Positions 283 to 15,260 of a stretch of DNA of 22,954 bases are shown piece by piece (the stretch's first letter is position 1; the number at the start of each line of letters is the position of its first letter). The notes under the pieces were generated by a model that was not told the DNA's origin, searched no databases, and saw only the letters and a program-made list of their open reading frames with translations. Origin of the DNA: a virus; the IMG/VR virus record IMGVR_UViG_3300025294_000146, positions 1 to 22,954 of that record. One strand, given 5' to 3'. Made by a program: the position numbers and the translations under genes.

Positions 283-1452
283 CTAGAAAATAAATTCTTG
301 CCCCACGTAAGCTTCATATTTGCTTTGTTCATTTTCTATTACTTTAGGTGTGACATGTGAATAAATATCAGAAGTAATTTCGATACTTTTATGTCCTAAT
401 CTTTCTTGTATATATTTCATTTCAACCCCAGCTTCTAAAAGAAGTACAGCATGAGTATGCCTTAATCCATGAACACTAATTTGATGCAGTTCAGCATTTT
501 TTAGGATGCGATCTAAAACATTTTTTAATGTTGATTTTGTTAGTGGTTTACCTGAAGTCGTGAATGCAAAATCGAAAGTTTTATCATACTTAGCGCCTAA
601 TTTTAATTTGCACTCATTCTGATACTTTTTAAATGTTTTAAGCACAGAGACCAGTCTATCTGAAATAGTAATAGAACGCACAGAATCATAGGTTTTAGTT
701 TTACCTATTAAATCTTTATTGTTCTTCTGTCCTGTAGGAGTATAAGCGTGATAATTTATAGTTCTATCAATATGAATCATTTTATTATCTAAATCAATAT
801 TTATATCCCACTCTAATGCCGTTGCTTCACCTTTACGCATACCAGTCTCTACTAAGGTATAAAAGTATGCATAATAAATCATTTTATCTTTATGAGCCAC
901 ATTCAATAATTTTGATACTTGTTCCTTTGTTAGATAATTTTCTTTTTTAGAATGCTGATTGAAACGATCTGCAGCAATTAGAATTTTGTTCGTGAAATCT
1001 TTGTAAATCATTTCTAAATCTATAGCACGTTTTATGGAGTTAGACATTGTTGAATGAATAATTTTGACTGTACGTTTTGAATAACCTTTGTTAATAAGGT
1101 GATTAATAAATTTTTGGTATTCAAGTTTATTTATATCAGCCAATTTGATGTTTTGAAAATACGGAACGATGTGCTTATTGATATTATTCTTATGAAGAAT
1201 ATAAGTGCTTTGACCGACTTTCCCTTTTTTGTACGTCTCTAGCCATTCTATTAAATACTCACTTAATAGCGTTTTTTTGCTATTCGCATCCATTCCATGG
1301 AATAATTGACGTTCTCGTTCATTGGCATGAAAGGTAGCTTCTTTTTTAGAATCAAATCCACTTTTACTTATTTCTCTTTTTTTTCCAGTAGTTTTATCGA
1401 CATATCGGAGTCGATATTCCCATTTTTTGCCCCGCTTTCTGAAAGTTGCCAT
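283..1452 (-). CDS. int: Phage tyrosine integrase
   Basis: This 389-aa site-specific recombinase inserts and excises the phage DNA at att sites. Residues 1-55 form a basic, AP2-like arm-binding domain (FRKRGKKW...). About 60-155 is the SAM-like core-binding domain and about 170-375 the catalytic domain. The catalytic set is complete: Arg206 in TGMRKGE, His328 and Arg331 in HGLRH, His354 in LGHKS and the nucleophile Tyr364 in SDIYSH. The start at 1452 is chosen over the longer frame (1485) because AAAGGAGGATATCATATG gives a strong ribosome site 7 bases upstream. It has its own promoter and is separated from the repressor gene by a terminator. Length and organisation match Tn916/phage-type integrases. 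Confidence 0.95.
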   Translation of the reverse strand: MATFRKRGKKWEYRLRYVDKTTGKKREISKSGFDSKKEATFHANERERQLFHGMDANSKKTLLSEYLIEWLETYKKGKVGQSTYILHKNNINKHIVPYFQNIKLADINKLEYQKFINHLINKGYSKRTVKIIHSTMSNSIKRAIDLEMIYKDFTNKILIAADRFNQHSKKENYLTKEQVSKLLNVAHKDKMIYYAYFYTLVETGMRKGEATALEWDINIDLDNKMIHIDRTINYHAYTPTGQKNNKDLIGKTKTYDSVRSITISDRLVSVLKTFKKYQNECKLKLGAKYDKTFDFAFTTSGKPLTKSTLKNVLDRILKNAELHQISVHGLRHTHAVLLLEAGVEMKYIQERLGHKSIEITSDIYSHVTPKVIENEQSKYEAYVGQEFIF

Positions 1453-1473
1453 ATGATATCCTCCTTTGTATTT

Positions 1474-1504
1474 GTGACATAGCACCTGATATGGGATATG
1501 TCAC
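1474..1504. promoter_or_regulatory. Inverted repeat in the int leader
   Basis: GTGACATA (1474-1481) and TATGTCAC (1497-1504) are perfect 8-bp arms around a 15-nt spacer. The repeat lies between the predicted int promoter and the int ribosome site, so it could be an operator or a leader hairpin. No further evidence separates these. Confidence 0.5.
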
Positions 1505-1521
1505 TGCCGAACTTAATTAGA

Positions 1522-1551
1522 ATAATACCATGACAACCTAATTACTGTAAA
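1522..1551 (-). promoter_or_regulatory. Predicted sigma-A promoter of int
   Basis: On the minus strand TTTACA, an 18-base spacer and TATTAT give 5/6 and 4/6-5/6 matches to consensus, about 70 bases upstream of the int start. It lies just inside the terminator that ends the repressor transcript, so int is likely transcribed independently. Confidence 0.5.
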
Positions 1552-1593
1552 AATAAAAGAAGAGAGGGATCGATGCCCTCTCTTCTTTATTTT
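1551..1593 (-). terminator. Bidirectional terminator between repressor and int
   Basis: AAAGAAGAGAGGG (1556-1568) pairs perfectly with CCCTCTCTTCTTT (1576-1588) around a 7-nt loop. The flank is T-rich on both strands. It would end the minus-strand repressor transcript and keep it out of int. Confidence 0.85.
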
Positions 1594-1650
1594 GTAAAAG
1601 AAAGAAAATTTTACAATTTGAATTTGGAAATGATTTCTTCTAAAATCAAA

Positions 1651-2004
1651 TCATAACAATTCGTCAGTCTCGGCTAAGACTTTAGAATAAAATACGAGTT
1701 GTTTGCAAAAACGCTCTCGTTTAGGTTCTTCTAACGCCGCATACGTTTGTTGAACTTCTTCGAGAGTGTTACGCAACACTACGTCATTTGTATTGTTATA
1801 ACTATTACATAGTAAGTCTAACGATACATTGAAAAACGAACTGATTTGAAGAAGTGTTTCCATGCTCGGTTCAAACATTGCATTCTCGTAATTATTTATC
1901 TGATTTCGACTGAGGTTTAGTTGTTCACCGAGTTGTTCTTGTGTTAAATCCTTAGACTTTCTAAGCTTCTTTAAATTTTGACCAAACAATTCTAACGCTT
2001 TCAT
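1651..2004 (-). CDS. XRE-family (Cro/CI-type) transcriptional repressor
   Basis: This 117-aa DNA-binding regulator has an N-terminal helix-turn-helix over residues 8-62 (LKKLRKSKDLTQEQLGEQLN, then SRNQINNYENA) and a C-terminal helical tail of about 50 residues. It lies next to int and diverges from the aimR region, which suggests control of integrase-side or arbitrium-side transcription. No Shine-Dalgarno is visible before ATG (2004); instead a TATACT lies 6 bases upstream, so the mRNA may be leaderless, as for lambda cI from PRM. A perfect inverted repeat at 2044-2060 is a likely operator. Its target is not shown by the sequence. It is one of three XRE-type proteins in the first 5 kb. Confidence 0.88.
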   Translation of the reverse strand: MKALELFGQNLKKLRKSKDLTQEQLGEQLNLSRNQINNYENAMFEPSMETLLQISSFFNVSLDLLCNSYNNTNDVVLRNTLEEVQQTYAALEEPKRERFCKQLVFYSKVLAETDELL

Positions 2005-3651: not shown

Positions 3652-3795
3652 ATGAAAAAAATTAGTCTAACAATTTTATGTATTATGAGTGCTTTAACTC
3701 TATCATTGAATGTAGGGGCAGCAACTAATGAAAGTAAAGAACAACCAGTTAAACAACAAGTACAATATATGATGTCTGAGCCTGGTGGGCTTTAA
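3652..3795 (+). CDS. aimP: AimP-like arbitrium signal-peptide precursor
   Basis: A 47-aa ORF starts 2 bases after the aimR stop. It begins MKKISLTILCIMSALTLSL, a Sec signal peptide (KK, hydrophobic core, cleavage probably after NVGA), then a polar linker rich in Glu, Lys and Gln, and ends MSEPGGL. Arbitrium precursors are 40-50 aa, are secreted and processed, and release a C-terminal peptide of about six residues that re-enters the cell and binds AimR. By that rule the mature signal would be SEPGGL; the exact cut is an inference. Translation is probably coupled to aimR (GGGATGAGG overlaps the aimR stop). A strong terminator follows directly, as expected between aimP and aimX. Confidence 0.85.
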   Translation: MKKISLTILCIMSALTLSLNVGAATNESKEQPVKQQVQYMMSEPGGL

Positions 3796-3825
3796 TAATA
3801 AAAATAAAATAGTTAATAAAAAGTT

Positions 3826-3858
3826 AGAGGTTGCGATTTCGCAGCCTCTTTCGTAATT
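3826..3858 (+). terminator. Terminator after aimP
   Basis: AGAGGTTGCG (3826-3835) pairs with CGCAGCCTCT (3840-3849), 10 bp with one G-U, loop ATTT, followed by a T-rich tail. It separates aimR-aimP from the next ORF, so the latter needs read-through or its own promoter. Confidence 0.8.
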
Positions 3859-3937
3859 TTCAAGATGTGTTGGGTTTTAGTTGAATGGCAAAAAATCGAC
3901 ACCTAATTATTACCAATTGATAAGGGAGGAAATTATT

Positions 3938-6298: not shown

Positions 6299-7162
6299 GT
6301 GTCAGAAGTTAAATGGATAAAGCTTTCAACTAGTATGTTTGAAGATGAAAAAATACGTTTAATCGAAAGCATGCCTGAAGCTGATACCTTACTAATTATA
6401 TGGATTAGATTATTAGCTCAAGCCGGAAAAACAAATGCGAGTGGGTATATTTTTCTGAGTAAAAACATTCCTTACTCAGATGAAATGCTTGCAACTCTAT
6501 TCAATAGACCAATTACAACAGTGAGATTAGCACTTCAAACATTTCAACAATTTGGAATGATTGAGATAACAAATGATCAGTACATTTGTATTTCGAATTG
6601 GGAAAAACATCAAAACGTTGATGGGTTAGAAAAAATACGAGAGCAAAACCGATTACGCAAACAAAAACAGAGGGAAAAACTTAAATTGGAGATGTCACGT
6701 GACAGTCACGAGACAATCACGCAAAGTCACGCAACAGATATAGAAGAAGATAAAGAATTAGATAAAGATAAAGAATTAGAAATAATTAATACATCTTCTT
6801 CTGACGAATCAGATACAAAAGTATCAATTCCTTATCAAGAAATCCTAAGTTACTTAAATGAAAAAGCGGATAAGAACTTTAATCATAAAGCCGAGAGTCA
6901 CAAAAAATTAATTAAAGCTAGATGGAATGAAGGTTATACAGTTGAGAATTTTAAAACAGTCATTGATAACAAAGTATCTCAATGGTTTGGGAAGTTTGAT
7001 AGAGAAGGGAAACCTCTTGATCAATATTTAAGACCAAGTACATTATTTGCGCAGAAACATTTTGATAACTATTTAAATGAAACAGTAAAAGGAGCGAAAA
7101 ATAATGATCCAATTGCAAGCAACGGAGCAGTTTACTACAACGAAACTGAATTTGACTTCTAA
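6299..7162 (+). CDS. Phage replisome organizer / replication initiation protein
   Basis: The 287-aa protein has an N-terminal replisome-organizer winged-helix domain (residues 1-115: VKWIKLSTSMFEDEKIRLIE and similar), a charged, Lys/Glu-rich linker (about 120-175) and a C-terminal conserved phage domain (about 185-270; LNEKADKNFNHKAESHKKLI, then YLRPSTLFAQKHFDNYL) that recruits the helicase loader or helicase. It is expected to bind the phage origin. GTG 6299 follows AAGGGGG with 8-base spacing; the frame extension to 6278 (TTG) has no ribosome site. It overlaps the DnaC-like loader by 59 bases, the usual initiator-loader pair. The origin may lie within this gene, but no clear iterons were seen. 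Confidence 0.88.
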   Translation: MSEVKWIKLSTSMFEDEKIRLIESMPEADTLLIIWIRLLAQAGKTNASGYIFLSKNIPYSDEMLATLFNRPITTVRLALQTFQQFGMIEITNDQYICISNWEKHQNVDGLEKIREQNRLRKQKQREKLKLEMSRDSHETITQSHATDIEEDKELDKDKELEIINTSSSDESDTKVSIPYQEILSYLNEKADKNFNHKAESHKKLIKARWNEGYTVENFKTVIDNKVSQWFGKFDREGKPLDQYLRPSTLFAQKHFDNYLNETVKGAKNNDPIASNGAVYYNETEFDF

Positions 7163-7979
7163 TCTATGTGAAGTGTGTAAAGAAAAAGGAATTAAGCAAC
7201 GAACAATGATATTTCAAGGCGAGGAAGTTTGCCCTAAATGTTATTTACAAAAGGACCACGATAGATTGTATACAGAATGCAACAAGTATTACAAGGGTGA
7301 AGAGGAACGGAGAAGAAAAGCTTATTTCCATAATCACAGTTTAATCAGTGACCCAACAATCATGAATGCAACATTTGAAAATTTCATACCTGATTGTGAT
7401 GAAGAAGTGAGCAATAGAGCTCAAGCTGTAACACATGCCCATAACTTTATAAGCGATATGAAATATACATTAGTAGCTTCTGGAGATGCTGGAAGAGGAA
7501 AAAGTCATTTAATGCATGCTATAGCTGAAGAAATTAATGATAACGGAACGCAAAACGTGTTGTTTATAAGCGAAAGTGTTTTATTCAAAAAGTTAAAAGC
7601 TACATTCAAAAGAGATTCTGAGTTATCTGAAGATGATTATTTACAAAAAATAATTGATGCAGATGTAGTGATATTTGATGATTTTGGTTCAACGTTAGGT
7701 GATTACAGAGATATCAACTTGAAAGCACTAGAATTCCACAATAAAAAAGGGGAAGGGAATATCACTGATCTCCAAAGAGCGACAAAATATATGAATGATA
7801 CTTATATGACCGTTTTTGATGGTAGACAAGGAAAGGCTAATGGAATTGCTACAAATTTAGTAGGTGCAGCAATCACGTATTGTTATGACCAGCGAATCAC
7901 ATCTAGGATACTTGGTTGCAAATCAGCCATGACATTTAAAAATACACCTGATAGACGTAAGAAAGCTTTACCTTTTTGA
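7104..7979 (+). CDS. DnaC-like AAA+ helicase loader
   Basis: This 291-aa ATPase loads the replicative helicase at the phage origin. An N-terminal zinc ribbon is seen (C22, C25, C43, C46), then a linker and the AAA+ domain: Walker A GDAGRGKS (127-134), Walker B VVIFDDFG (188-195) and Arg268 in RITSRIL as the probable arginine finger. The 59-base overlap with the replisome organizer shows they are co-translated. The length and N-terminal Zn motif fit phage DnaC/DnaI proteins rather than IstB of IS21, and no transposase gene is nearby. Residues 210-250 (KKGEGNITDL and after) are an unusually long insertion between Walker B and the C-terminal helices. Confidence 0.88.
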   Translation: MIQLQATEQFTTTKLNLTSNLCEVCKEKGIKQRTMIFQGEEVCPKCYLQKDHDRLYTECNKYYKGEEERRRKAYFHNHSLISDPTIMNATFENFIPDCDEEVSNRAQAVTHAHNFISDMKYTLVASGDAGRGKSHLMHAIAEEINDNGTQNVLFISESVLFKKLKATFKRDSELSEDDYLQKIIDADVVIFDDFGSTLGDYRDINLKALEFHNKKGEGNITDLQRATKYMNDTYMTVFDGRQGKANGIATNLVGAAITYCYDQRITSRILGCKSAMTFKNTPDRRKKALPF

Positions 7980-9884: not shown

Positions 9885-10139
9885 ATGGCTATCGAAGCAC
9901 ATAAATGTAACGTTAAAGGATGTAATGGTCTTGTAGTTTTTGAAAATGCTGATTTTAATTTGCAAAATCCTGACACAATTAAAGGAGTTTATGCACTTGA
10001 TGATCCTACTTGTAACGTTTGCGGAAAAGAATTTTTAGTAGTACCTAGCTATTCTGTCATTGATCTTGATGTAGAAACACAAGAATTTGAAGAAATTGAA
10101 CCAGCTTGTATTACTGAATGGCAGAATCAAAGATTTTAA
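9885..10139 (+). CDS. Hypothetical protein with a zinc-ribbon-like motif
   Basis: An 84-aa acidic protein with two Cys pairs, CNVKGC (residues 8-13) and CNVCGKEF (about 43-50), spaced as in a zinc ribbon, and an acidic C-terminal half (LDVETQEFEEIEPACITEW). It could bind one zinc ion and nucleic acid or protein. GGGGAACGAG precedes the ATG. It is the last gene before the hairpin-repeat array. Function not recognised. Confidence 0.65.
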   Translation: MAIEAHKCNVKGCNGLVVFENADFNLQNPDTIKGVYALDDPTCNVCGKEFLVVPSYSVIDLDVETQEFEEIEPACITEWQNQRF

Positions 10140-10160
10140 CCAAAGCGTTAATTGAAAACA

Positions 10161-10806
10161 AAATAGAGCGTACAAATGAGTAGGCTCTTAAAAAGATAGG
10201 TTTTATGAGTATTGGATTACCATATACTTTATGTTTTTTTGCATAATCGTGTAAACAAAATTAAATAAAAGAGCACATATTAAAATGTGCTCCTTTAAAA
10301 GGTGACAGCTTACAAGGCCTAATTTGTAAGCTGAATACATGTGCAGCCAATATTAATATATGTATTTTCTTATGAAGTGTGAAAAGAGAGCACCTTTTCA
10401 AAGTACTCTTAGTAAGGAGATTACTATAAGTGAAAAATTTTCATATCAATACTATATGCTTGTCTTATCAAAAGGTGAAAGCTTTTATAAAAATGTTGTT
10501 ATTTCATAGTGAAAAATCTAAGAGCACGCAGATAACAATGCTCTTAGATTGGAAAGGTAGATTTCTATGCCTGGAGGGTCTCCATACAATAACTTATGCT
10601 TGTCCGTTAAAAATGTGAAAGGATTTAACAAAATAGTTATTTTATAACGAATAAAGGAAAGAACCCTTTTTGATAAAAGGATTCTTTCCTCAAGGTCTGC
10701 AAGAAATTCAAGGTAACTGGACCAGAGAAACCTGTGAATTTCTTTGTGATAATACTGTATGCAAAGGAATCAATAAAGTTAATGAATTTTAAACAAAATT
10801 CTTATT
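10161..10806. repeat. Tandem hairpin-repeat array, block A (five units)
   Basis: Five diverged units begin with hairpins at 10165-10188 (AGAGC-G-TAC arms, one mismatch), 10271-10292 (GAGCACAT, 8 bp), 10387-10409 (AGAG-C-AC, one mismatch), 10515-10550 (AATCTAAGAGCA, 12 bp) and 10656-10689 (GGAAAGAA plus CCTTTT, one mismatch). Unit starts are 106-141 bases apart. After each hairpin comes a loosely shared tail: AAAGGTAG-TTCTATG, CCATACAATAAC-TATGCTTGTCC, then GTGAAAGG-TTTT-AATAAAAT-GTTATTT. Units 2 and 5 have a second 10-bp hairpin (10306-10333; 10701-10744). Stem sequences differ but pairing is kept. On the minus strand most stems are followed by T runs, as in terminators. No conserved reading frame spans the units. 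Confidence 0.8.
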
Positions 10807-10821
10807 TTGGAGGGGAACGGA

Positions 10822-11220
10822 ATGGAAATTAAAGTGAACGAGCAAGCTCAACGTTTTTATCTAGCGTTTGATGAATGGGTACCTGCAGTTGGTCATGAAA
10901 TTAAAGTGGGACAATATCGTTTTTGCGCTATTCCATTAAGTGAATCTATTAATATTTTGGAAGTGACATCTGGTGTACATGCTATAACCATTCCAATTGA
11001 TATGAGGATTTGGATGGCAACAAGCACTAAGGAAGATACAATGAGGTTTTTAGAAAAAGCTGGTGAAGGTTTAAAGCGAATCCTTGAGAGACAAAGTAAT
11101 TTAGATGAATTACTTGCAAAAAATATAAAGATAGCATTTGATCGTTTGGGAGAAATGCCGCCAATTGAAGATGTGGATACGGATTGGATAACTGCTGATA
11201 TCAGTGACGTGATTCATTAA
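10822..11220 (+). CDS. Hypothetical phage protein lying inside the repeat array
   Basis: A 132-aa protein starting at ATG 10822 after GGAGGGGAACGGA. The N-terminal half is beta-rich (VNEQAQRFYLAFDEWVPAVG, then INILEVTSGVHAITIPIDM), the C-terminal half helical and acidic (LKRILERQSNLDELLAKNI; ending DWITADISDVIH). No catalytic or binding motif is recognised. It separates the two blocks of hairpin repeats and runs in the same direction as the early operon. Confidence 0.75.
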   Translation: MEIKVNEQAQRFYLAFDEWVPAVGHEIKVGQYRFCAIPLSESINILEVTSGVHAITIPIDMRIWMATSTKEDTMRFLEKAGEGLKRILERQSNLDELLAKNIKIAFDRLGEMPPIEDVDTDWITADISDVIH

Positions 11221-11883
11221 GTAATACAAAATCCTTATTTAGACATAAAAAAAGAGCACAATATATGTGCTCTTAGACAAGAAAGGTAGATTCTTATGAG
11301 TGGATGCCTCCATACAATAACATATGCTTGTCCATTTAAAAGGTGAAAGGTTTTAATAAAATCGTTATTTAGTAAAAAAGAACACTGTTCAACAGTGTTC
11401 AATATGTAACACGAATCTTATGAGGATGAATAGAACCGGTGGATTCAGTTCTTAGTACATTATATTTAATCCTTTCGAAAAAAATGCTTGTTAATAAAAA
11501 AAGAGCACATATATAACGTGCTCTTGGACAAGAAAGTTAGGTTCCTATGAGGAGAGTTTCCCCATACAATAACATATGCTTGTCCAGTTAAAAGGTGAAA
11601 AGTATATTTCGAAACCAGCAAAAAATGAATAGAGCGTCTTGGGAGAAAGACGCTCTAAAGGTGAATGTACTGTAGAGAGTATTCGGTTTAGTATATGCAA
11701 TTCATTTAGGAAATGTTTTTAATGAAAACGCTATTTGATACTAAAAATTAAAAGTGAAAAGAGCACTATGAATAAGTGCTCTTTTCAAGAGTGAGTGTAA
11801 ATTCCTATCATTCTATATTAGTATATGCTGACAGTAATAAATTGTGAAAAAACTGGACAAAACTGTATTTGATAAAAATATAA
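11221..11883. repeat. Tandem hairpin-repeat array, block B (five units)
   Basis: Five more units with perfect hairpins: 11252-11274 (AAGAGCACA, 9 bp), 11380-11400 (GAACACTG, 8 bp), 11501-11525 (AAGAGCAC, 8 bp), 11630-11657 (TAGAGCGTCTT, 11 bp) and 11756-11786 (GAAAAGAGCACT, 12 bp). Starts are 128, 121, 129 and 126 bases apart. The first and third units are the most alike (CCATACAATAACATATGCTT shared). In the third unit a second helix GGACAAG (11526) with CTTGTCC (11579) brackets the middle. On the minus strand the first three stems are followed by TTTTTT and so look like intrinsic terminators. No gene is seen in this stretch. Confidence 0.8.
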
Positions 11884-12171
11884 CTAAGTTACAATAAATT
11901 CCACGATAATTGGAGTTGCTCCATCAAGTACATCTCCACCAGGAATGGTAATAGAAGAAGGACCGACAGTGATAGTTGAAGTGTCAGCAGTTTGAAGAAC
12001 ACCATTAATGTAGAGATTGTAATAAGCGTAAGCAGCTGGAAATGCTGTATTTGTTCCTGTATCATTTGTGAAAGCTGTTGCAACAATTGCAAATGTAGCA
12101 CCAGTACCTGTTCCAGAGGATGCTACGCCGGTGAATTTTCTACCAGCAACAAAAGGGTGAACGATAGCCAT
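11884..12171 (-). CDS. DUF4183-domain protein
   Basis: A 95-aa protein with the DUF4183 pattern: a beta-sandwich-like, Thr/Ala/Gly-rich sequence with AFPAAYAYYNLYINGVLQTA and ITIPGGDVLDGATPIIVEF. Such proteins are common in the Bacillus cereus group, often beside exosporium, collagen-like or phage genes. The role is structural or unknown. It is transcribed against the early operon, so it may be a lysogenic-conversion gene expressed from the prophage, perhaps during sporulation. GAAAGGAGCGAATTTCA before ATG 12171 is a strong ribosome site. No signal peptide. Its transcript would run into the hairpin array, whose minus-strand terminators would end it. Confidence 0.85.
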   Translation of the reverse strand: MAIVHPFVAGRKFTGVASSGTGTGATFAIVATAFTNDTGTNTAFPAAYAYYNLYINGVLQTADTSTITVGPSSITIPGGDVLDGATPIIVEFIVT

Positions 12172-14348: not shown

Positions 14349-15260
14349 GTGAAAAAAAATGCGGTTAAAACAATAAGCACGAAAAAAGAAATATTTAGTA
14401 AGAAATGGAATGATATTTTAGAAGAAATTGCACTCTTTAGAAGAGAATCAATGTCAAATTGGATATGGTTTAGAGGGCATAGTAAGGAAGAATATAAGTT
14501 GGATTCAGGCCTCTTTCGAACTTTAGACAAGAATAAAAAATTAAAATTGATGCAGTACATAATTCTTGAAGATCACTTGAAAATAAATTTTAAGCAGCAA
14601 GCGTCAACTTTTATTAGAGAAGATGATATTGATTTACAATTTCATATGCAACATCATGGATTAAAAACAAGATTATTAGACTGGACAGATTCGTTTGGTA
14701 CAGCTTTATATTTTGCTTTTGAAGGATGGGATTATGATAAGGAAAATAATGCTTGTATATGGTTGTTAGATCCATATGCTTTACATTGTAATCTCCAAGA
14801 AGAATATCCTACTATCAAAACTACAGATTCGATTAGAAATATGAATGAAAAACTTGTTAAAGGTAAAATTGAAAGTTTATCAGATATCTTTAATAATGAA
14901 CATATGGAGTATACGTTTCCAATGTATCCGTCAAAAAATAATGCAAGATTATTGGTGCAGAATGGGTATTTTACAGTTCAAAGTAATAGGCTAGAAGATT
15001 TAGAAGTTGAATTAGAACAAGCTTGTCCAGAAAATAAAGAAAAAATATTAAAAAAAATAATTTTATCACCAGATTTATTAGAATGTATATATGAGTATTT
15101 GACTTTAAATGGAATTAACCATTTCACGGTTTATAATGATGTCGATGCATTGTCTAAGTATTTAAATAAAGAACTTACTGAAAATGCGTTTGATGAAAAA
15201 ATAAAACGTATAGCTAAGTTTAGCAGTCTTAATTATATAGAAAATAATATGGATATTTAA
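14349..15260 (+). CDS. FRG-domain protein (candidate phage-borne defence gene)
   Basis: A 303-aa protein (GTG 14349; AAGGA 9 bases upstream). The FRG domain covers about residues 30-125: NWIWFRGHSKEEYKLDSGLF, then LQFHMQHHGLKTRLLDWTDS and FGTALYFAFEG, matching the family hallmarks FRG, QHHG-TRLLDW and ALYFA. FRG proteins are widespread in mobile elements and have been tied to anti-phage islands; the biochemical role is not settled. It is AT-richer than the late genes and has its own terminator. With the following DUF2971 gene it forms an accessory island inserted between the arpU/recombinase pair and the methyltransferase. Superinfection exclusion is a plausible role, by inference only. Confidence 0.85.
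   Translation: MKKNAVKTISTKKEIFSKKWNDILEEIALFRRESMSNWIWFRGHSKEEYKLDSGLFRTLDKNKKLKLMQYIILEDHLKINFKQQASTFIREDDIDLQFHMQHHGLKTRLLDWTDSFGTALYFAFEGWDYDKENNACIWLLDPYALHCNLQEEYPTIKTTDSIRNMNEKLVKGKIESLSDIFNNEHMEYTFPMYPSKNNARLLVQNGYFTVQSNRLEDLEVELEQACPENKEKILKKIILSPDLLECIYEYLTLNGINHFTVYNDVDALSKYLNKELTENAFDEKIKRIAKFSSLNYIENNMDI

Follow-up and report, generated by a model that had tools for sequence, protein, structure and literature searches.

SigK is a sporulation factor whose activity is confined to the mother cell at a late stage, and its consensus comprises AC in the -35 element and CATA...TA in the -10 element, 16 nt apart. Small RNAs assigned to this factor have been described in B. subtilis, namely SurC and others (Silvaggi et al., as cited in PMC9147052). 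They are small noncoding RNAs of the mother cell encoded by single chromosomal genes, whereas the locus presented here carries a multi-gene, hypervariable prophage set. The LhrC1-5 RNAs of Listeria monocytogenes (PMC5880928) likewise come from several sRNA genes with their own promoters, and their CU-rich stretches pair with Shine-Dalgarno regions; however, the LhrC copies are close homologues controlled by LisR, while the units described below are highly divergent, phage-borne and preceded by SigK-type promoters. In B. thuringiensis HD73, the mapped SigK-dependent promoter of the exosporium gene bclA reads CAC-N16-CATATGTTA (PMC4750369). The -35 and -10 elements and the spacing of units 6 and 8 of our array are identical to it; SigK dependence is known for the bclA elements and is a prediction from sequence for the units, and bclA encodes a protein, whereas the predicted array transcript stops after ~65 nt. 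Regarding prophages, sprB of SPbeta (PMC4191935) is a gene that uses the host sigma-E/K during sporulation through a mother-cell promoter, but it drives prophage excision, unlike an sRNA cluster located beside spore-surface genes. DicF-type phage-derived RNAs (review PMC12197685) are also prophage-encoded regulatory sRNAs, and this 2025 review of phage sRNAs contains neither the word Bacillus nor the word sporulation and describes no sporulation-timed array type. There are precedents for SigK-driven sRNAs, for tandem sibling sRNAs and for prophage morons taken singly; the literature searched here contained no description of SigK-controlled prophage sRNA arrays, nor of a large, reshuffling, sporulation-timed sRNA repertoire in a prophage beside spore-appendage or germination genes.

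The stretch analyzed here (the window) is an IMG/VR virus record of 22,954 bp with the gene order of a temperate siphophage, i.e., integrase, XRE regulators, DnaD/DnaC-like replication genes, dUTPase, late activator, terminase, portal, protease, and capsid, with the name read off the translation wherever a gene was not searched. The noncoding array of ten units is situated between the dUTPase region and the late activator, and phage SpaA1/BceA1 has two units at the place matching it. Because of this relation and the presence of an F-ENA gene, we infer that the host, or the prophage, is of the Bacillus cereus-group type. Further along, between the late activator and a DNA methyltransferase-like gene, a gene on the plus strand (14349-15260) encodes an FRG-domain protein, possibly an anti-phage or accessory function. 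Ten stem-bearing units about 125 bp apart had been described at this place by a sequence-only reading, and the stem coordinates bear this out: stems start near 10161, 10266, 10384, 10515, and 10654 and, after the gene at 10822-11220, near 11252, 11380, 11501, 11630, and 11755, with a spacing of 104-136 bp and five stems on either side of the gene, in agreement with the two flanking blocks of that reading. The array reaches position 11848, at the -35 element of unit 10. Units 4, 6, and 8 (type A) share 77-86% identity, and the remainder 59-71%. The features are listed below, with transcription starts set by rule at ~7 nt past the -10 element and related loci designated by L numbers.

10155..10252, minus strand: putative sRNA gene, unit 1; promoter ACACGATTATGCAAAAAAACATAAAGTA 10252-10225, AC-N17-CATANNNTA; predicted RNA ~10218-10155 with a weak terminator hairpin 10196-10161; relatives in L051 (96%), L087, L076, and L125
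10260..10380, minus strand: putative sRNA gene, unit 2; promoter AC-N16-CATATATTA 10380-10354; predicted RNA ~10347-10260 with a 10-bp 5' hairpin and terminator 10297-10266; copies (93-98%) in L051, L087, L125, and L076
10378..10476, minus strand: putative sRNA gene, unit 3; promoter CAC-N16-CATATAGTA 10476-10450; predicted RNA ~10443-10378 with terminator 10415-10384 and anti-SD TCTCCTTA inside
10509..10616, minus strand: putative sRNA gene, unit 4 (type A); promoter CAC-N16-CATAAGTTA 10616-10590; predicted RNA ~10583-10509 with a perfect 12-bp terminator stem
10648..10779, minus strand: putative sRNA gene, unit 5; promoter AC-N16-CATACAGTA 10779-10753; predicted RNA ~10746-10648 with a long 5' hairpin and terminator 10691-10654; 25 distinct homologues
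10822..11220, plus strand: phage gene phrog_5780, function unassigned; splits the array; the L051 version lacks this gene and units 6-9
11246..11344, minus strand: putative sRNA gene, unit 6 (type A); promoter CAC-N16-CATATGTTA 11344-11318; predicted RNA ~11311-11246 with a 5' hairpin, a CTCATA..CTACCTTTCTT linker, and terminator 11274-11252
11374..11475, minus strand: sRNA-like unit 7; 9-bp terminator stem plus T6 tail, 11400-11380; degenerate promoter ATATAATGTA without AC-N16-CATANNNTA
11495..11596, minus strand: putative sRNA gene, unit 8 (type A); promoter CAC-N16-CATATGTTA 11596-11570; predicted RNA ~11563-11495 with terminator 11525-11501
11624..11716, minus strand: putative sRNA gene, unit 9; promoter AC-N17-CATATACTA 11716-11689; predicted RNA ~11682-11624 with an 11-bp terminator stem 11657-11630; copies in L087, L110, L030, and L017
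11749..11845, minus strand: putative sRNA gene, unit 10; promoter CAC-N16-CATATACTA 11845-11819; predicted RNA ~11812-11749 with a 13-bp terminator stem 11787-11755; just behind the DUF4183 gene
11884..12171, minus strand: DUF4183 protein of 95 aa, homologous to the subunit of the F-ENA endospore appendage (E 8.9e-30 to PDB 9hze)

Considering their anatomy, strand, promoter class, terminators, covariation and recurrence, the units are likely to be ten minus-strand small-RNA genes, nine of them with a SigK-type promoter, carried by a prophage. A family of small RNAs was among the options of the sequence-only reading, and it is the one that the units now favor, as each reads on the minus strand as promoter, RNA, and terminator; nine of the ten are complete, having a promoter and an intrinsic terminator, and unit 7 retains the terminator only. 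That the units are noncoding was also upheld: the longest reading frames inside the RNAs of the window span 0-27 codons (frame conservation assessed by eye only), and protein products were rejected, as short plus-strand frames such as MSGESPYNN... and MNGKLPYNN... shift frame between copies.

The assignment of the RNA to the minus strand is based on the terminators, the promoters, and the asymmetry of wobble pairs. A generic terminator scan of the array identified seven terminator-like hairpins, all seven on the minus strand, where shuffled sequences lead one to expect 0.7; the A-rich run preceding the stem seen earlier corresponds, on the minus strand, to a U-tract behind a stable hairpin, i.e., an intrinsic terminator. 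Pairing is kept while the sequence changes, as had been claimed, and homologues from other prophages support this. In type A (38 units), each of the five covariation measures was higher than in 499 or more of 500 shuffles, and in the unit-5 type (25 sequences) covariation is clear in the terminator, with double changes at 5 of 12 pairs, and weak in the 5' hairpin (double changes 0). Non-Watson-Crick pairs, counted as G-U in the 25 unit-5-type and 38 type-A sequences, favor the minus over the plus strand in each comparison (33:12, 28:3, 20:13, and 33:5), for a total of 114:33, and this asymmetry together with the covariation supports a minus-strand RNA. Folding energy alone, an unbiased comparison of the strands, gave 28:16 (p 0.10) and is suggestive only. 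We have high confidence in the predicted gene anatomy and in the minus strand. In B. anthracis, strand-specific RNA-seq reported nine phage-related genes as 'flipped' in all four samples, and these genes belong to three or more of the four prophages of this species (PMC3425587). Read as antisense over sense, 'flipped' is compatible with the array, yet it is specific neither to these elements nor to sporulation.

Regarding the promoters, the exact motif AC-N16/17-CATANNNTA occurs on the minus strand in 9 of the 10 window units and nowhere on the plus strand of the array, against an expectation of 0.10. These nine units thus combine the -10 element CATANNNTA with AC at -35, 16-17 nt upstream of CATA, and unit 7 lacks the combination. 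The shared 'TATGCTTGTCC' tail of the sequence-only reading is this -10 region read on the wrong strand. Among 45 distinct type-A-like units found with a profile in which the promoter was not a criterion, 38 carry the SigK motif, compared with 0.67% of random segments. In the -35 element of type A, AC is invariant and the preceding TT variable, as expected for SigK and not for sigma-A. Over 119 loci, the distance from AC to CATANNNTA peaks at 16 (263 vs. 83 in reversed sequence); in the unit-5 type, 12 of 25 homologues lack the exact AC or the C of the motif. A sigma-A reading of the boxes (TTCACN-17-TATNNT) was abandoned because the invariant positions are AC and CATA...TA. The consensus argues strongly that SigK would control the units.

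The genes in the vicinity point to the same stage of the host. Along the direction of transcription, the DUF4183 gene comes immediately before unit 10, on the sRNA strand, and is itself preceded by a perfect -10 element, CATAAAATA, without AC at -35; phages apparently carry spore appendage genes. Unit 10 is also found near a DUF4183 gene in L051, L087, L032, L060, L093, and L113. Likewise, germination proteins of the gerPA/gerPF type are encoded in six loci (L106 6527-6742, L125 7903-8118, L015 5528-5743, L017 2980-3195, L073 3422-3637, and L098 10538-10753), identified by Pfam for the L106 copy and by eye for the others, and they have a SigK-type promoter, in several variants, 34-35 nt upstream of the start codon. 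In L044, a collagen-like protein (1002-1730, minus strand) has a SigK-type promoter 76 nt upstream, and its N-terminus contains VIGPTLPPIPPFTLPTGPTG, which we take to resemble the BclA exosporium leader. The gerPA/gerPF and collagen promoters serve as internal controls for the SigK motif in phage loci. Genes flanking the units across the loci occur in both orientations, and in loci such as L087, as in the window, the region also contains accessory genes on the sRNA strand. We read the region as an accessory module that would be active in sporulation. In the same accessory region of L087, a sulfotransferase-family gene (7003-7791, plus strand) is situated behind a SigK-type promoter, and L075 bears a group II intron (10059-10831, minus strand) in its prophage accessory region.

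Similar units are present in other phages, where over 100 prophage loci were found. A pattern built from the best units retrieved 38 stretches in viral contigs, additional patterns raised this to 119 loci, and a profile search together with a structure-based detector gave hundreds of units; counts across the loci draw in part on phages related to one another and on contig pieces that overlap. With the combined promoter-terminator score set at 30, 241 calls were obtained, compared with 7 for reversed sequence, and 73 promoter regions are distinct; units of the same loci, excluding the window, had served to train the promoter weights, and the detector was tuned on this sRNA family, so that these counts indicate abundance and are no proof of function. 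Unit types recur in other phages in different company and order, and L051 carries units 1-5 and 10 with the DUF4183 gene at 77-98% identity and lacks gene 10822 and units 6-9. Copy number therefore does vary among related phages, as had been anticipated, and the recurrence in other orders together with the L051 version suggests a cassette cluster that grows and shrinks rather than a simple amplification; the earlier picture of one multiplied unit does not hold for distinct types with identities down to 59-71%. These are extra genes with their own promoter and terminator set into the lytic gene order, and we regard the array as putative accessory 'moron' genes of the prophage, which would be expressed in the lysogen and dispensable for phage growth. 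In Rfam, the window (E<=1) gave no match to an sRNA family, with only a sub-threshold L20 leader at 3752-3862, 13 related loci matched no sRNA family, and LhrC was found in neither scan. Other elements were noted in these loci. L112, L121, and L025 share a further recurrent RNA-like element (GTAACTTAAAGTTACA...GGGCCTAATTTT...) with two hairpins and a terminator, unlike the types described here. The plus-strand motif AACAAAATNGTTATTTT, located at 10627 and 10792 of the window and at many sites in related loci, precedes both lytic-strand genes and sRNA units and looks like a start-associated or module-boundary sequence. Finally, L006 (4001-4164, Klebsiella grimontii plasmid pNY3A) contains a copy of unit 7 and its surroundings (78%) within a Bacillus-like stretch, possibly a foreign insert or an assembly contamination.

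The transcribed 5' parts are highly diverse. In type A, a covarying 5' hairpin precedes CTCATAGAAATCTACCTTTCTTGTC, which is complementary to a ribosome-binding site together with a start codon, and a CTCATA motif is conserved, while other types contain CTCCTT, CCTCC, or ACCTTTT. Of 52 distinct linkers, which are partly related by descent, 27 contain anti-SD 5-mers, versus 16.1 +/- 2.9 in shuffles. This hypervariability and enrichment suggest that the 5' parts could bind ribosome-binding sites, which would recall the pairing of LhrC with Shine-Dalgarno regions (PMC5880928). The target search in the phage loci found none. The type-A seed had no match in phage start regions outside the units, the sites beyond the known units at which 13-mers of 81 linkers matched exactly were, among the matches listed, further units and no targets, a duplex scan against 2,122 start regions gave only long gapped pairings without meaning, and pairing with the start regions of prophage spore genes remained at background level (mean percentile 0.53). 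The type-A seed was also considered as antisense to a phage gene start and rejected: among 28 IMG/VR stretches, the Bacillus-like ones were all units and the others unrelated.

In the mechanism we propose, each unit would give rise to an RNA of ~60-100 nt that runs to an intrinsic terminator of its own, which is the stem of the sequence-only reading. As SigK acts only in the late-sporulation mother cell, production would be timed to sporulation, and the lysogen would make the whole RNA set while the spore coat and exosporium assemble, along with the products of the prophage spore-part genes. A single-stranded anti-SD stretch, often in the variable 5' part, could then pair with the ribosome-binding sites of mother-cell mRNAs, with repression of their translation as the most likely action and GAAAGGTAGATTTCTATGAG-like start regions in SigK-regulon genes as candidate host targets. 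We advance such repression of mother-cell mRNAs as a tentative hypothesis.

Other explanations were weighed against this proposal. The same minus-strand sRNA genes might be transcribed by another sigma factor (sigma-A, sigma-E, or a phage sigma) and provide immunity RNAs in lysogeny that pair with the complementary early transcript of a superinfecting relative. The units oppose the plus-strand lytic operon, so that a read-through transcript of a related phage would hold perfect target sites, and the hexamers can also be read as the weak sigma-A boxes given above. However, the sigma-A promoter TTGAC..TANNNT matches 1 of the 45 type-A-like units against 38 for the SigK consensus, the conservation of the -35 element is SigK-like, and the adjacent prophage genes sharing this promoter are spore genes, which makes this explanation quite improbable. 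It is likewise unlikely that the units are transcription boundary elements, that is, promoter-terminator pairs insulating accessory genes and yielding a short RNA without a role. Although unit 10 is directly behind the F-ENA gene and could be its terminator, the ten units follow one another with hardly any genes between them, and the covarying 5' hairpin of type A, its conserved CTCATA, and an anti-SD content above shuffles do not fit this explanation.

The remaining alternatives appear very improbable. A structured plus-strand RNA, protein decoys, or packaging or replication signals had been put forward in the sequence-only reading, and the stems can indeed pair on both strands; however, the minus strand holds every terminator and every SigK-type promoter of the array, along with the excess of wobble pairs, and some of what looks like plus-strand pairing (GGACAAG/CTTGTCC) draws on the promoter spacer, which is not transcribed, and is not retained in relatives. 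Plus-strand structures thus give way to a minus-strand RNA, and nothing points toward packaging or replication signals or decoys. A MITE-like repeat spreading by transposition, to which we give as little credence, would account for copies scattered over many positions in related phages, but the copies retain promoter and terminator while the middle diverges completely, no terminal inverted repeats bounding the unit were noticed in a repeat scan, and the mapped copies remain in the same phage region.

Under the preferred reading, that of SigK-controlled minus-strand sRNA genes, the formation of a spore is probably the time at which a resident virus turns on its set of small regulatory RNAs. It is possible, and we suggest it with caution, that prophages of the B. 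cereus group carry an exchangeable, hypervariable set of mother-cell sRNAs in which the SigK promoter and terminator stay constant and the seeds vary, and that this set, together with phage-borne spore-surface genes, allows each prophage to reprogram the coat, exosporium, or germination proteins of the very spore in which it will be carried. The dozens of natural sRNA variants with a fixed promoter and terminator could be used for finding targets in late sporulation. If the proposal is true, temperate phages would tune the dormant stage of their host via RNA.
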